DNA from: Polyangiaceae bacterium
GTDB lineage: Bacteria; Myxococcota_A; Polyangia; Polyangiales; Polyangiaceae
Direction: 5' to 3'
NCBI GenBank assembly: GCA_029261965.1
Contig: JAJDAH010000049.1
Span: 1 to 53,829, forward strand
DNA length: 53,829 nt
A model generated the notes under the pieces. The model was not told where the DNA came from. It saw only the letters and a list, made by a program, of their open reading frames with translations, and searched no databases. Position numbers and translations under genes: made by a program. Below, piece by piece: positions 10,899-52,528 of the stretch (its first letter is position 1; the number at the start of each line of letters is the position of its first letter).

Positions 10899-11378
10899 GT
10901 GCGTGGCCCCAAGATGCTCGCCGTCGTCGCCGTCGTGGTGATCGCGGGCTGTGAAACCATCGAACCGGGGCCGGATTTCCAGCAAGCCGAGGTGGTCTTC
11001 GACGAGAATTTCTTCTACTGCCGCGTCGAACCCGTGTTGTTCAATTCCGGCTGTGGACCTGGCGATCCCGCCATGGGGGATGCGGCCAACGGTTGTCACT
11101 TCAACGTGACGACGTTTCGCCTCACCGACTACCGCGCCGGTGGCACGCCTCTCGTGGCGGACAGCTGCGGCGGCGGCGTCGTACCAGGGGTGACCCCACC
11201 CGCCGGCGCGCAAGCGAACTACCAGAGCGCGCAATTGAACATGAGGCGAGATCCGGACATGGCGCCGCTGTTTCTGCGACCGACCGAAATCGCCGAGCAT
11301 CCGCGGCAGATTTTCCCCCAAGTGAGCCCGGAGACGGACGTGATCCGCGAATGGGCAACCCGGTTCTCGAGTCAATGA
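10899..11378 (+). CDS. Lipoprotein with cytochrome-like C-x13-CH motif
   Basis: A 159-aa protein from GTG 10899 (MRGPKMLAVVAVVVIAGC): a short basic n-region, a hydrophobic core and the lipobox VIAGC at Cys 18. ATG 10914 is the alternative start but would lose the basic residues. In the mature part Cys 52 and Cys 66-His 67 are separated by 13 residues (GCGPGDPAMGDAANGCHF) in a context like c-type cytochrome CxxCH loops, preceded by FYCRVEPVLFN, as in 'VxPIL' cytochromes. Haem binding is only a possibility. Its stop overlaps the next start (ATGA, 11375-11378). Confidence 0.6.
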   Translation: MRGPKMLAVVAVVVIAGCETIEPGPDFQQAEVVFDENFFYCRVEPVLFNSGCGPGDPAMGDAANGCHFNVTTFRLTDYRAGGTPLVADSCGGGVVPGVTPPAGAQANYQSAQLNMRRDPDMAPLFLRPTEIAEHPRQIFPQVSPETDVIREWATRFSSQ

Positions 11379-12139
11379 AGCGCCGAATTGCAGCGGCCAT
11401 TCTGAGTCTTTCTGCCGTCACGACACCGGCGTGGGCGCAGGAAGAAGATGTGCCCGACGTCGACGCGTTTGCACGGGTCATCGTCGGCGAAACCGAGCTC
11501 AGATCCGGTCCGGGTGTCTCCCATCGCGTCGTCAGCCGGGCCTCTCGAGGCGACACGCTGTTCATCCGTGGCCGTGAAGGTTCTGGATTTTGGCTTCAGG
11601 TTTCGCTTCCCGACGGCCGCACGGCATATGTGCTCGGCGATACGGTCGAGCCGATCGGCTTTGAGGAAGACGAGGTCGATCGCCCGAAGAAGCCCGGTTT
11701 TTTCGCACCGCCTGCGCTCGAAGAAGCGAATGCCGGATTCGCTTTGCTGGGCGGCATCTACCGCGAGAACGGCTACATCGAAGCCAAGATCGGCTGGGTC
11801 ATCGCACCGCCGATCGCGCTCGAACCCTACGTCGGCATCGCGCAGAACACCGACGGTCGCACCATCATCGTCGGAGGTGGGGGGACCCTGAGCTTGTTTC
11901 CCGATTGGCCGGCCACGCCGTACGTTCACATCGGCGGCGGGGGCCTGTTCCTCGATTCATCCGACGAGTTCATCGTCGAGGACCAGGAGTTCTTTCATGC
12001 CCGTGCCGGTGGCGGGCTTCTCGTCAGCTTGCGCTGGCGCATATTGGTGAGGCTCGAGGTGATGAACGTGACGCGCTTCACCCAGGAGCGATATGCGAAT
12101 TTTCAGTCCTACACGGGCGGTTTCGGAACCTATTTCTGA
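11375..12139 (+). CDS. Secreted SH3-domain protein with C-terminal beta-barrel-like region
   Basis: A 254-aa exported protein. The signal peptide MKRRIAAAILSLSAVTTPAWAQ is cleaved after AWA. Residues about 32-95 form a bacterial SH3 domain (ETELRSGPGVSHRVVSR, then a W-L-Q-V strand and GRTAYVLGD), a module that usually binds cell-wall peptides or mediates periplasmic contacts. Residues about 120-254 have alternating hydrophobic/Gly strands and end in an aromatic (TYF), as expected for an outer-membrane beta-barrel. Coupled to the upstream lipoprotein by an ATGA overlap and followed closely by DUF4266 and DUF3570 genes. Confidence 0.75.
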   Translation: MKRRIAAAILSLSAVTTPAWAQEEDVPDVDAFARVIVGETELRSGPGVSHRVVSRASRGDTLFIRGREGSGFWLQVSLPDGRTAYVLGDTVEPIGFEEDEVDRPKKPGFFAPPALEEANAGFALLGGIYRENGYIEAKIGWVIAPPIALEPYVGIAQNTDGRTIIVGGGGTLSLFPDWPATPYVHIGGGGLFLDSSDEFIVEDQEFFHARAGGGLLVSLRWRILVRLEVMNVTRFTQERYANFQSYTGGFGTYF

Positions 12140-12169
12140 CGGGCGAATGGTGTAGAGATGGAGACAAAG

Positions 12170-12391
12170 ATGGCGTCAAGACTGCGGGTGTTGCTCCTTG
12201 TGGGGGCGACCCTTCCGATGGCGGTGGGCTGCGTCACCGTTCGTCCCGAAGAGCGAGCCATTCTGGCTGATCCCGTCATGCAGTTCGACGGTGACCCGCG
12301 CGAAGCGGCAGCGACTCAGCACGTCATCGAGAATCGCGAAGGCTCCTACGGTGGACGCACGGTTCGTGGAGGCGGCTGCGGCTGCAACTGA
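12170..12391 (+). CDS. DUF4266 lipoprotein
   Basis: A 73-aa lipoprotein, MASRLRVLLLVGATLPMAVGC, with lipobox AVGC. The mature part contains VRPEERAILADPVMQFD and ends in GGGCGCN, the hallmark of DUF4266. GGAGA lies about 7 bp before ATG 12170; an in-frame ATG at 12158 would add MET-K. DUF4266 genes usually neighbour DUF3570 genes, as here: its stop overlaps the next start by one base (TGATG). The role of the pair is unknown; it is thought of as an envelope or outer-membrane system. Confidence 0.88.
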   Translation: MASRLRVLLLVGATLPMAVGCVTVRPEERAILADPVMQFDGDPREAAATQHVIENREGSYGGRTVRGGGCGCN

Positions 12392-13674
12392 TGCACCGAG
12401 CGGTCGACCGACGAGCTAGGCAGCGCGGCGCGAGGGCCGTGCTTGCCCACGTGCTCTCCATGCTGGCGCTCGTCGCGACGGTGCTCGTGGGATCTCTCGC
12501 TCACGCCCAGGTGGCCGACTTCGACGTCCGATCGACCCTGTTTCTCGAACCCTCGCCGGATAGCGACATGACGGTATTCACGCCGTCCGCCAGCGTGTCG
12601 GTCACGCCTTGGGATTTTCTGACGTTGGACGCCGGGTGGGAAGCGGACATCGTCAGCGGCGCGACCGAGGCGGTCAAGGCTGGGAGTGTCCAGCCAAATC
12701 CGGACATCGTGACGACCGCGAGCATCACGGACTTTCGAAACGTCGTGAGTGGCGGGTTCACGATCCGACGCGAGCAAACGACGTTCAGCGCGGCGTATTC
12801 GTGGGGCGACGAGAGCGACTATCGGTCGCAGGCCATCACCATTTCCGCCGGCGCCGACTTCTTTCAGCGGAACACGCAGCTCGTGCTTTCCTACTCACAC
12901 GCCTTCGACGAGGTCTGTAACGCTGGTTACGCGGACTCTCTCAGCCCGACTCTCCGTCAACCCCTCGACAGCTCCACCGACTGCTTCAAGAACGTCGACA
13001 ATCGGCGGGTCGACGACGTCGATCAGGACAACTTTCAAGGAGCTTGGACGCAGGCGTGGTCGCCGGTCTTCACGACCCAAGTCGTGCTCACGGGTTCGAT
13101 TCAGAACGGCTTTCTGGGCAATCCCTATCGAGCCGTGGTGATCGGACCCACCGGCGAAACCGCCCAAGAAAACCATCCGAACGACCGCGGGCGCGCGGCG
13201 GGCGCGGTCCGCGCGCGCCTGTACGTCAAGCCCATCAAGACGGCATTCGGCGTCGGTGGTCGCATCTATCGCGATACGTGGGACCTCACGAGCGGCACCG
13301 CGGAGGTCGAAGCCGAGCGCTACATGCTCGAATGGCTGAGGTTGAGGATCCGTGGCCGGTACTACCAGCAGTCGGAGACGCTCTTCTGGAGCGATGACTA
13401 CACCGGCGGAGAGCCGGACTTTGGTCCGCGTGGACAGTACTGGACTGGTGATCGCGAATTGTCCCCGCTCAGCTCGATTTCGCTCGGTGGGCGGGTGATG
13501 GCGTCCTGGCGCGGCGCGAAGGGCGACCGTATTGCCGGTATGTTCCTCGAGTTTCAAGCCGGCGGCGGTTTCGATTTCGTCGTCACGAATCTCGAGGAGT
13601 TCACCTGGGCGGGCAGAACGCCCAACGACACGACCGCACTTGTGACTCAGCTGAACGTGACAGCGCTTTTCTGA
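12391..13674 (+). CDS. DUF3570 outer-membrane beta-barrel protein
   Basis: A 427-aa protein with an Arg-rich n-region and a signal peptide ending at SLAHAQ (about residue 39). The mature part is alternating amphipathic strands (VSVTPWDFLTLDAGWEADIV, FTIRREQTTFSAAYSWG) and ends in the aromatic LNVTALF typical of outer-membrane barrels. Length and sequence style fit DUF3570, whose members normally follow a DUF4266 lipoprotein. It is the last gene of a four-gene overlapping operon (10899-13674) and faces the convergent FHA-sigma54 activator. Confidence 0.85.
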   Translation: MHRAVDRRARQRGARAVLAHVLSMLALVATVLVGSLAHAQVADFDVRSTLFLEPSPDSDMTVFTPSASVSVTPWDFLTLDAGWEADIVSGATEAVKAGSVQPNPDIVTTASITDFRNVVSGGFTIRREQTTFSAAYSWGDESDYRSQAITISAGADFFQRNTQLVLSYSHAFDEVCNAGYADSLSPTLRQPLDSSTDCFKNVDNRRVDDVDQDNFQGAWTQAWSPVFTTQVVLTGSIQNGFLGNPYRAVVIGPTGETAQENHPNDRGRAAGAVRARLYVKPIKTAFGVGGRIYRDTWDLTSGTAEVEAERYMLEWLRLRIRGRYYQQSETLFWSDDYTGGEPDFGPRGQYWTGDRELSPLSSISLGGRVMASWRGAKGDRIAGMFLEFQAGGGFDFVVTNLEEFTWAGRTPNDTTALVTQLNVTALF

Positions 13675-13735: not shown

Positions 13736-15097
<1,362 letters not shown>

Positions 15098-15573: not shown

Positions 15574-16113
15574 TCAGTCTGCCGGGGTCGAATCCGCCTG
15601 GCTGTCGGTCGACGAGTCGTTCGCACCGCCATCGTTCGGTGTCGCGCCAGCGTCACGCGGGGCGAGGCGCGCCAGGTTGAAGAGTCGGATGAGCTTGACC
15701 AGCCCGGTGACGGTCTTCTCTGGAAGGTCGAAAGCCGGCATGGCGTTTTTCCCTCGGCGAATCGATTCGGCGATTCTTTCGTCCGTCACCGAACGCTGCC
15801 ATGCGGGATCGGCGAGACTTTGCGCGCGCACCATCGGGCCTTGGGGACCGTCGCCTCGGCCCACGCGCCCGTGGCACTTCGCGCAGTTTCGTGTCCACGT
15901 GATGACGGTGACGTCGTCGAGACCGGGCTGAGGCGCGGCCTGCGCGGCCGCGGCGTCGCCAGTGGCAACCTGTGCGCGGTTCGGCACCGATGTGTTTTCG
16001 TGATCGGATGTTTTCCACTCGCGCAAGTCCGGCGCGGTCGGCTCACACGCGAGCACCGCTAGAAGCGCCGCGCAAAGGACTCCGGCGCTGCTCGCCCGTC
16101 GCTGGCGCTTCAT
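15574..16113 (-). CDS. Monohaem cytochrome c lipoprotein
   Basis: A 179-aa protein. ATG 16113 gives MKRQRRASS, a basic n-region and a lipobox (LAVLAC at 23); a GTG at 16134 would add seven residues. The haem site is CAKCH at about 77-81, and Met of NAMPAF (about 125) is the likely axial ligand, the typical class I cytochrome c layout. A disordered C-terminal tail rich in Asp/Ser/Ala follows. It probably carries electrons at the periplasmic face of the envelope; the partner is not identifiable. It lies downstream of the OmpA gene terminator on the same strand. Confidence 0.82.
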   Translation of the reverse strand: MKRQRRASSAGVLCAALLAVLACEPTAPDLREWKTSDHENTSVPNRAQVATGDAAAAQAAPQPGLDDVTVITWTRNCAKCHGRVGRGDGPQGPMVRAQSLADPAWQRSVTDERIAESIRRGKNAMPAFDLPEKTVTGLVKLIRLFNLARLAPRDAGATPNDGGANDSSTDSQADSTPAD

Positions 16114-16155
16114 GTGGCGTCGGGGGCTTGTCACGGGTGACCTTCTACCAGGCTC

Positions 16156-51049: not shown

Positions 51050-52528
51050 TCAGCCGGGGTCGGCGCTTCGGTCGCGGCGCGTCTTGGCGATGCGCAATCG
51101 GCGCTTCGCGGCCTCGAGCCCGCTCTGATTGGCTTGCCCCGCAGCGAGTTTTTCGTATCCGGACACTTCTTCTTCGATGGCGCGCACTTCGCCGTCGAAA
51201 TCGCGAAGGCGCCGAAGGATGTCCGCTTTGAGAGCGAGGTACCTCAGCCGCCGCGGACCGTAGCTCTTGGGCAGCGCGCGGTCGATCGCGGCCTTCGCTT
51301 CTTCGAGCTGGCCGACTTTCGAAAGCATCGATGCCAGACGGGCCGGCGGCTCGTAGCTCTCGGGCAGCTGTTTCTCTCTTTCGCGGAGCATTTTGATGGC
51401 GCGATCGGGCTTCCCGAGGGCGAGGTACGCGTTGGCGCGCGCATAGTCGTGAGTCTGGGCCACTTGCGGCGTCGGCGCTTCCGCCGCAGCTTTCTCCATC
51501 AGAGCGAGTCTGCGCTCGTTCGCCGCCTTCTGGCCGGCGTGGTCGCCGAGGGTTTCGCGCGTGTTGGCGAGGATGGAGAGCGCGTCGGCTCGGTCGTCCA
51601 CCGACGCGTCGGGGGGTGGCGATTCCGTGAGCTTCTCGAGGTGGGCGATGACCCCCCCGAGCGCGGCCTTGCGGTCCGGGCCCGGCTCGAACTTTTCGAT
51701 GCACGCGACGTAGTAGTGACAGAAGTCCGCCGGAATCGCCGATCCGCGGAGCTCCGAGAGGTGGTTCTTGCCGACGTTGACGCAAGCTTTCCACTCCTCG
51801 GCTCGATGGAGCGCCATGACCCAGCCGAGCAGGGCTTCGCTGCGACGTGGCCAAGTTGCGTCGACGGACGCGAGCAACTTTTCGTAGTGCGTCGCCGATT
51901 CGGAGAACTTTCCGGCCACTTGGGCGGCTTTTGCTGCCACCAATCGACCCAGGGGCGAGTCGTCGCCGAGCTCGCTCTTTCGGCGACGATCTAGGGCATC
52001 GAGCGACTCGTTGGCGAATTGCACGAGCTCTCGGGTGGACGCGGCACCGGGCCACATCCCGAGCACGGCACCGTCAGTCGGGTCGATGACGAAAAACGTG
52101 GGCCAGACGTTGACGTCGTACTTTTCGAGAAACGCACCGTTGTTTTCGTTGTCCGTGTCGATGGCGACGAACTCGAGGCGTTTGCCGAGCGGCGAAAGTG
52201 CCGCGTCGGTGAAGACGTAGCTCTTCATGCTGAGGCACGTGTGGCACCACGGCGCCCACGCATCCACGAACAGCGCCTTCCCATCCGAGGTCGCACGTTT
52301 TGTGGCAGCGGGGACATCGTCGTGGCTGAACGAAACCGCCAATTTCGGAGCCGCGGCCGCCCCGTCGGCTGTTGCGTTAGGACCTGCCGATGCTGCGAGC
52401 GCGGCGGAGTCTGACGTCGCCGGGCGCGCGTCGGTGGTTGGCTTCTTGCACGCCGTCAATGCGGTTGGCGCTGCCAACAGCACTGCCAACAGGCCGGCCT
52501 TCGTCGCTCGTCGAACCGGGGAGTCCAC
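51050..52528 (-). CDS. Thioredoxin-fold TPR lipoprotein
   Basis: A 492-aa exported protein: signal with lipobox LTAC (Cys 27), then Ala/Ser linker. Thioredoxin-like domain at about 65-175 with active site WCHTC (94-98) preceded by FVDAWAP and followed by VWPTFFVID. The remaining 300 residues are tetratricopeptide-like helix pairs (e.g. YARANAYLALGKPDRAIKML, ARLASMLSKVGQLEEAKAAI). Probably reduces or shuttles disulfides in the periplasm. Third gene after the PepSY protein and molybdoenzyme in one transcription direction. Confidence 0.85.
   Translation of the reverse strand: MDSPVRRATKAGLLAVLLAAPTALTACKKPTTDARPATSDSAALAASAGPNATADGAAAAPKLAVSFSHDDVPAATKRATSDGKALFVDAWAPWCHTCLSMKSYVFTDAALSPLGKRLEFVAIDTDNENNGAFLEKYDVNVWPTFFVIDPTDGAVLGMWPGAASTRELVQFANESLDALDRRRKSELGDDSPLGRLVAAKAAQVAGKFSESATHYEKLLASVDATWPRRSEALLGWVMALHRAEEWKACVNVGKNHLSELRGSAIPADFCHYYVACIEKFEPGPDRKAALGGVIAHLEKLTESPPPDASVDDRADALSILANTRETLGDHAGQKAANERRLALMEKAAAEAPTPQVAQTHDYARANAYLALGKPDRAIKMLREREKQLPESYEPPARLASMLSKVGQLEEAKAAIDRALPKSYGPRRLRYLALKADILRRLRDFDGEVRAIEEEVSGYEKLAAGQANQSGLEAAKRRLRIAKTRRDRSADPG

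Follow-up and report, generated by a model that had tools for sequence, protein, structure and literature searches.

A four-gene operon conserved in Polyangia

We analysed a 53.8-kb stretch of DNA (53,829 nucleotides, hereafter the window), which is contig C424 of the 9.6-Mb genome of a Polyangiaceae bacterium and on whose full length all positions given below are numbered. The subject is a group of four genes on its + strand coding for a small lipoprotein, a protein with an SH3_3 domain and a predicted beta-barrel (SH3-barrel protein), a DUF4266 lipoprotein and a DUF3570 protein, which an earlier note made from the sequence alone (the original prediction) had described as an overlapping operon. 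All four genes are present and two of the junctions do overlap, that between genes 1 and 2 by ATGA (11375-11378) and that between genes 3 and 4 by TGATG (12389-12393), but genes 2 and 3 are separated by a gap of 18 bp (12140-12157). The features are listed here, with the residues of the lipoprotein counted from its GTG start and with A1 denoting the alignment of 27 mature lipoprotein sequences.

10899-11378, + strand: gene 1, cytochrome-c-like lipoprotein P0001 with C-x13-CH; GTG start, ATG at 10914 as an alternative; assigned from homologues, alignment and a profile match to CX4-7CH domains
10950-10952, + strand: lipobox Cys (IAGC), aligned across homologues; predicted lipid anchor
11019-11021, + strand: C41 (FYC), C24 of A1; proposed disulfide partner of C90
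11052-11054, + strand: C52, C35 of A1; first Cys of C-xn-CH
11094-11099, + strand: C66-H67, C49 and H50 of A1; CH of C-xn-CH, where haem is proposed to attach, with H67 as proximal ligand
11166-11168, + strand: C90, C73 of A1; proposed partner of C41
11298-11300, + strand: H134 (HPR motif), H117 of A1; proposed distal haem ligand
11375-12139, + strand: gene 2, P0002 ('SH3B'), SH3_3 domain and predicted small outer-membrane beta-barrel with C-terminal Phe
12158-12391, + strand: gene 3, DUF4266 protein P0003 (profile match), predicted lipoprotein; ATG at 12170 as an alternative start
12377-12385, + strand: C-terminal CGC (CXC) motif of DUF4266, ending GGGCGCN; found in every listed copy except that of L044 (contig end)
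12391-13674, + strand: gene 4, DUF3570 protein P0004 (profile match), predicted flavinylated outer-membrane barrel
12655-12666, + strand: SGAT, ApbE flavinylation motif at site 1 of DUF3570; motif function from PMC8238504

In Pfam, gene 2 matched SH3_3 (PF08239; 39.2 bits, cut-off 27, residues 41-91), gene 3 DUF4266 (PF14086; 63.5 bits, cut-off 27) and gene 4 DUF3570 (PF12094; 87.6 bits, cut-off 25). The barrel fold and the outer-membrane location of the products of genes 2 and 4 are predicted from their C-terminal Phe and sequence pattern, and the last Phe of gene 2 is invariant in the 27 aligned sequences. The lipoprotein matched no family of Pfam or NCBIfam above cut-off and had no sequence relative in the PDB; DUF6480 (E 0.012 and 0.0059) was rejected, being below cut-off and found in only one of the 27 members.

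Homologues of gene 1 were found in 26 of 59 related genomes, its own included. The order and strand of genes 1-2-3-4 were retained in all 27 loci compared, namely the window, L003 (the locus of a Polyangiaceae metagenome-assembled genome, the nearest named relative found) and 25 fetched regions; two of them, L033 with two genes and L044 with three, run into contig ends and hence lack DUF3570. Another locus, L030 (G002:C181), was dropped as a chance second match of the gene 1 search. Among 377 Myxococcota genomes, the gene 1 profile matched 36 at E <= 0.01, the weakest matches being remote, and the SH3-barrel gene was found in 42 at more than 100 bits; the threshold used gave 47, from which five weak partial matches (G379, G181, G271, G288 and G292) were removed. 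The four-gene set recurs beyond chance in Polyangia, a class of soil bacteria. DUF4266 and DUF3570 had been taken in the original prediction as a known neighbour pair, and this pair is indeed published, within clusters of ApbE, thioredoxin and DsbD (PMC8238504), hereafter called canonical; the accompanying proposal that the lipoprotein and SH3-barrel genes are new members of this neighbourhood is borne out by the 27 loci.

Conserved residues of the gene 1 lipoprotein

Four residues of the lipoprotein, C41, C52, C66 and H67, are invariant in A1, and C90 and H134 are conserved in at least 90% of the sequences. When the 27 aligned proteins were joined by those of six further loci (33 together) and by four more profile matches, C-xn-CH was retained in each of the resulting 37 close homologues, and all of them carry a His 60-68 residues past the second Cys of the motif. 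A search for homologues without the second Cys or the His, proposed along with the original prediction, returned none among the 37. The candidate proximal and distal haem ligands, the CH and the His of HPR, are both among the conserved residues. The spacer itself varies: n is 9 in one locus, 10 in 15, 11 in three, 12 in one and 13 in 17, so that canonical CXXCH is present neither in the window protein nor in its close homologues. Therefore, although C-x13-CH occurs in the window as had been described, it is too narrow as a defining feature, and what characterises the family is not a fixed 13-residue spacer but the two Cys, the His and the second His. Similarly, C52 and C66-H67 had been singled out correctly, but the conserved C41 and C90, and H134, present in nearly all homologues, had gone unmentioned.

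Relatives with other spacers bear on the role of the outer cysteines. In seven CX5/CX7CH proteins encoded beside SH3-barrel genes both outer Cys lie at other positions, and in six of seven parsed domains of L113, as well as in L177, the pair is absent and C-xn-CH stays. Because the outer Cys move or vanish together, we infer that C41 and C90 form a disulfide and that C52 and C66-H67 belong to a separate site. L187, which has no upstream Cys but three downstream, is an exception to the pairing.

Relationship to short-spacer cytochrome-like domains

The remote matches of gene 1 lead to DUF4266/DUF3570 loci in which a cytochrome-like protein has a shorter spacer, CX4CH in L110 and L111, CX5CH in L109 and L112, CX6CH in L107 and CX7CH in L108. 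From such proteins a second alignment, A2, was built of 14 CX4-7CH domains, most of them encoded beside other Myxococcota DUF3570 genes; five come from L113, which has no DUF3570 within its 8 kb. (The regular expression applied to the remote domains left four rows without a match and parsed the second domain of L111 as x14, which reads CX4CH.) In the one pair compared by hhalign, A1 and A2 matched with a probability of 99.2 and an E-value of 2e-19, and by this comparison the lipoprotein is related to the CX4-7CH domains. Both have a V.P motif, C-xn-CH, a downstream His and a C-terminal Trp. They differ in the spacer, 4-7 in the short-spacer domains, many of which have H.GG, versus 9-13 in the family of the window lipoprotein, which has HPR and the C41/C90 pair at this position.

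The short-spacer domains show a weak resemblance to PSCyt1 (L112) and to hydrazine synthase alpha. Against 177,635 PDB sequences, the A2 profile found three chains at E <= 10: 4rlr, a one-haem cytochrome c (E 0.048), FoxE (5mab, 0.12) and hydrazine synthase alpha (5c2v, 1.8). Each of the three alignments spans a haem motif. Although each match is weak, all three chains are c-type cytochromes, which argues for a kinship of these domains with cytochromes.

The relatives also include loci richer in such proteins. L110 (6027-10068) and L111 (6387-9668) each have two CX4CH proteins and CXXCH proteins beside DUF4266-DUF3570, and appear to be a larger, cytochrome-rich version of this cluster; one CXXCH protein of L111 (6914-7747) resembles the choice-of-anchor V domain (31.4 bits, cut-off 42). 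In L113, an open frame of 894 residues (9-2690, + strand) contains tandem CX4-5CH cytochrome-like domains.

The spacer lengths were mapped onto a phylogeny of 78 DUF3570 sequences, with canonical ApbE-linked copies as the root. Here, the CX4CH loci form a grade below the SH3-barrel clade, within which CX5/CX7 loci are sister to a group of CX6 and 9-13. With 47 labelled loci, those without a readable cytochrome domain being omitted and L180 being labelled x4 by eye, the spacer required 22 ordered steps versus at least 87 in 500 shuffles, and 11 unordered changes versus at least 23. Along the tree the spacer thus appears to lengthen roughly from 4 to 5-7 and then to 9-13; with several inner nodes poorly supported, this order is not firm for the long spacers.

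Partner genes and flavinylation motif of DUF3570

Méheust et al. (2021) showed for Chlorobium luteolum that ApbE attaches flavin mononucleotide (FMN) covalently to DUF3570 at [ST]GA[ST] motifs. The clusters that they describe encode a DUF4266 protein whose C-terminal motif is CXC, a protein resembling thioredoxin and, in some cases, DsbD (PMC8238504). The window DUF3570 also has the flavinylation motif, which had been overlooked in the original prediction and alters what the operon probably does: site 1 reads DIVSGAT and site 2 DIVTTAS, that is, one motif versus the canonical two. Among 79 DUF3570 loci of Myxococcota, the 24 ApbE-linked copies have two motifs in 18 cases, one in 3 and none in 3, whereas the 39 copies linked to an SH3-barrel gene all have a motif (one in 38, two in 1). 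Where neither an SH3-barrel nor a linked ApbE gene is present, 15 of the 16 copies have none.

A similar division is seen in the neighbouring genes. The 20 canonical loci (L157-L176) were chosen from the top-scoring DUF3570 matches and not at random, and the next 20 (L177-L196) were hand-picked from the same list. In the canonical loci, ApbE was found in 20/20, a thioredoxin-like gene in 18/20 and DsbD in 14/20, with a cytochrome-like or an SH3-barrel gene in 0/20. In 60 other loci, DsbD was found in 0/60 and a thioredoxin-like gene in 5/60, one of these being a distant protein of the window. The survey of DUF3570 neighbourhoods that had been suggested as a check, carried out here within Myxococcota, placed a cytochrome-like gene beside 38 of the 39 SH3-barrel-linked copies, and the sequence of the 39th locus (L181) stops at a contig edge. 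The CGC tail of DUF4266 is common to canonical and SH3-barrel loci. These comparisons suggest that the electron partner of the predicted DUF3570 flavin has been exchanged, from a DsbD/thioredoxin thiol chain in the canonical loci to a cytochrome-like lipoprotein here.

The window has no ApbE gene within its 53.8 kb and no DsbD match, and its sole weak thioredoxin match is some 37 kb away from the operon, so that the locus has no linked ApbE or DsbD and no nearby thioredoxin-like gene. The distant match (51050-52528, - strand) is a lipoprotein-like protein with a thioredoxin-type WAPWCHTC segment. One ApbE is encoded elsewhere in the genome, on contig C363, with a lipoprotein-like signal. ApbE occurs in 42 of 42 SH3-barrel genomes versus 48 of 62 other genomes of the class (Fisher p 6.5e-4, a value that ignores shared ancestry). 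Its genome-wide presence was set aside as evidence of flavinylation and is held to be weak support, because ApbE is common in the phylum.

Two further DUF3570 copies without the motif were observed. In L107 (5947-7864, + strand), a second copy in G396 that lies inside the SH3-barrel clade, both the SH3-barrel gene and the motif Gly (SAAT) are missing, and this joint loss suggests that the two are functionally tied. The genome of the window itself has a second DUF3570 (L056; G000:C295, 3-1160, + strand) with VTAAS and no flavin motif, and no DUF4266 was recognised on its 10.9-kb contig.

Closer to the operon, a convergent gene (13739-15097, - strand) encodes a regulator with an FHA domain and a sigma-54 activator, with similar genes in 9 of 32 operon loci. 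About 1.9 kb downstream, a gene at 15577-16134 (- strand) codes for a cytochrome c protein with the canonical CXXCH motif (Cytochrome_CBB3, 39.6 bits), and proteins like it are found in 8 of the 32.

Discussion

The interpretation that we favour, and that we hold to be about evenly balanced between right and wrong, is that the operon encodes a hybrid flavin-cytochrome envelope redox module, a variant of the DUF3570/DUF4266 system with cytochrome-like and SH3-barrel partners. It is built on the conservation of the operon and its motifs, the relationship to the CX4-7CH domains, the lack of linked ApbE and DsbD and of a nearby thioredoxin-like gene at the window locus, and the way in which the SH3-barrel gene and the GA motif occur together, all of them sequence comparisons. 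DUF3570 would be an outer-membrane barrel with one covalent FMN on the Thr of SGAT, attached in the periplasm by the unlinked, lipoprotein-like ApbE, and the thiols of the C-terminal CGC of the DUF4266 lipoprotein may serve in redox reactions or metal binding. The C-x13-CH lipoprotein would descend, by stretching of the spacer, from a c-type cytochrome domain with CX4CH, holding one haem via C52 and C66 with H67 and H134 as ligands and with C41-C90 as a structural disulfide, and could pass electrons to or from the flavin, in either direction. The SH3-barrel protein might anchor or assemble the flavin-bearing form of DUF3570. At this locus, it would replace, together with the lipoprotein, DsbD, the thioredoxin-like protein and the linked ApbE.

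Haem binding by the lipoprotein, which the original prediction had offered as one possibility, has a probability that we put at a little over one half. It is supported by the invariant CH, the second His, the kinship with the CX4CH domains and the precedent of CX15CH, so that the proposal comes out strengthened but unproven. Of the two haem c exceptions named in its favour, CX15CH is confirmed in the literature, as CX12NKGCH in the octahaem cytochromes MccA/SirA (PMC6976685, PMC7096707), but CX17CH was not found in the literature searched.

Several observations weigh against this interpretation. According to the same two sources, CX15CH requires a dedicated haem lyase, and an extra Cytochrom_C_asm (PF01578) gene, sought in the 59 relatives, was not seen in the operon-bearing genomes, 25 of 26 of which have 3 matches and one 2; three per genome is also usual without the operon. 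The loop between C52 and C66 is long and variable in length. The long-spacer profile A1 matches no PDB cytochrome, the single E-values of A2 are weak, no curated cytochrome family is above cut-off for any member (PSCyt1, E 0.12 for L112), and the two structure models, for which only the window protein and its L003 counterpart were used, are of low confidence, with predicted local distance difference test (pLDDT) values of 41.1 and 27.8, and lend no support to the cytochrome and barrel folds. On the flavin side, the same holds for the three ApbE-linked copies without a motif, for L193, whose single motif lies away from site 1, and for L186 and L199, which have a GA motif and no SH3-barrel gene in the stretch examined. 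L199 (700-2469, + strand) has a TGAT motif and no ApbE was found in its genome, G360, which is 95% complete; it is either an exception to the rule of motif and ApbE or an assembly gap, and the DUF3570 genes of G360 are outside the 79 loci. ApbE itself occurs in 316 of the 377 Myxococcota genomes, and the Fisher test of its association carries the limit given above. Finally, cytochrome-like genes are also present in 2 of the 24 ApbE-linked loci and, among the 16 loci that lack both a linked ApbE and an SH3-barrel gene, in 9, the other 7 having none.

The alternative that survives best, although we regard it as unlikely, is that the lipoprotein derives from a cytochrome domain but no longer carries haem, with C52-C66 and C41-C90 as disulfides, the former redox-active or structural, and that it serves as a thiol partner of the DUF4266 CGC in place of thioredoxin. 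This would fit with the scarcity of thioredoxin-like genes and the absence of DsbD in the 60 non-canonical loci compared with the canonical ones, with the number of Cys besides that of the lipobox, exactly four in 29 of 33 close homologues, and with the same variable loop and unseen lyase gene that count against a haem. However, a disulfide leaves unexplained the invariant His after the second Cys and the His 60-68 residues on in 37/37 homologues, and the way in which the outer Cys of relatives move or vanish (L187 excepted) and C-xn-CH stays points to C52 and C66 as a pair of their own. Less probable still is a Cys2His2 site for Zn, Cu or Fe, made of C52, C66, H67 and H134 in a cytochrome-derived scaffold, with the operon serving in metal handling at the cell surface. 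The two Cys and two His are indeed conserved as a set, and Méheust et al. report VIT1 iron transporter genes in 25 DUF3570-type clusters (PMC8238504), but the only recognised PDB relatives of the related domains are c-type cytochromes, and no metal-transport gene was recognised among the ten scanned proteins, of which eight are neighbours in the window. That the operon is a structural unit of envelope assembly, in which SGA[ST] and CGC are structural and no electrons flow, is the most improbable of the three, since, in spite of the SH3_3 domain of gene 2 and the unlinked ApbE, the C. luteolum protein is flavinylated at such motifs (PMC8238504), the motif is kept in 39/39 copies with the SH3-barrel and absent in 15/16 without it or ApbE, and neighbouring variants repeatedly contain CXXCH proteins and cytochrome-like domains.

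A broader proposal may be made for Polyangia, which we put forward tentatively and as rather less probable than the module itself: a natural series of single-haem lipoproteins from one family, with a spacer extended from 4 to 13 residues, would need only the general Ccm system and no dedicated lyase for maturation, and would be coupled to a DUF3570 barrel with one flavin, forming a hybrid flavin-haem conduit for electrons in the outer membrane. According to a survey of 2014, it was still to be determined whether haem can be bound covalently where the two Cys are separated by more than four residues (PMC4245776). Within one domain, the natural spacers described here are graded (4, 5, 6, 7, 9, 10, 11, 12 and 13), and, as the domain is small and expressible, this question becomes directly testable; the literature searched yielded no CX13CH. 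The module swap, DsbD-thioredoxin-ApbE versus cytochrome-like and SH3-barrel proteins, concerns an uncharacterised flavin-based envelope redox system whose flavin sites broadly track the type of locus (two, one or none, with exceptions). In the literature searched, DUF3570 and DUF4266 were each found in a single study, the same for both, and Polyangia were not found together with flavinylation.

The DUF3570/DUF4266 redox module is known, and the cytochrome-like and SH3-barrel partners and the one predicted flavin site are new. As in the canonical DsbD/thioredoxin/DUF4266/DUF3570/ApbE clusters, a CXC-ended DUF4266 adjoins a DUF3570 with [ST]GA[ST] at site 1. Unlike them, the window locus has no linked ApbE, thioredoxin or DsbD, adds a cytochrome-like lipoprotein and an SH3-barrel protein, and belongs to a group in which 38 of 39 copies have one FMN motif instead of two. 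Méheust et al. regard the variability of the gene clusters as consistent with a redundancy of flavins and cytochromes (PMC8238504). With MccA/SirA, the lipoprotein has in common a long spacer between the two Cys before CH, but those are multihaem enzymes with a dedicated lyase, whereas the window protein is a small lipoprotein with one motif and no extra lyase gene was seen in the operon-bearing genomes. Atypical CX3-15CH motifs are also reported for the outer-membrane cytochromes of Pcc systems (PMC4245776). The Pcc/Mtr porin-cytochrome conduits share with the operon the idea of a barrel and a cytochrome lipoprotein encoded together. No family relation between them and the operon is apparent, and the window operon differs in having no multihaem protein and in carrying a flavin motif on its predicted barrel protein.

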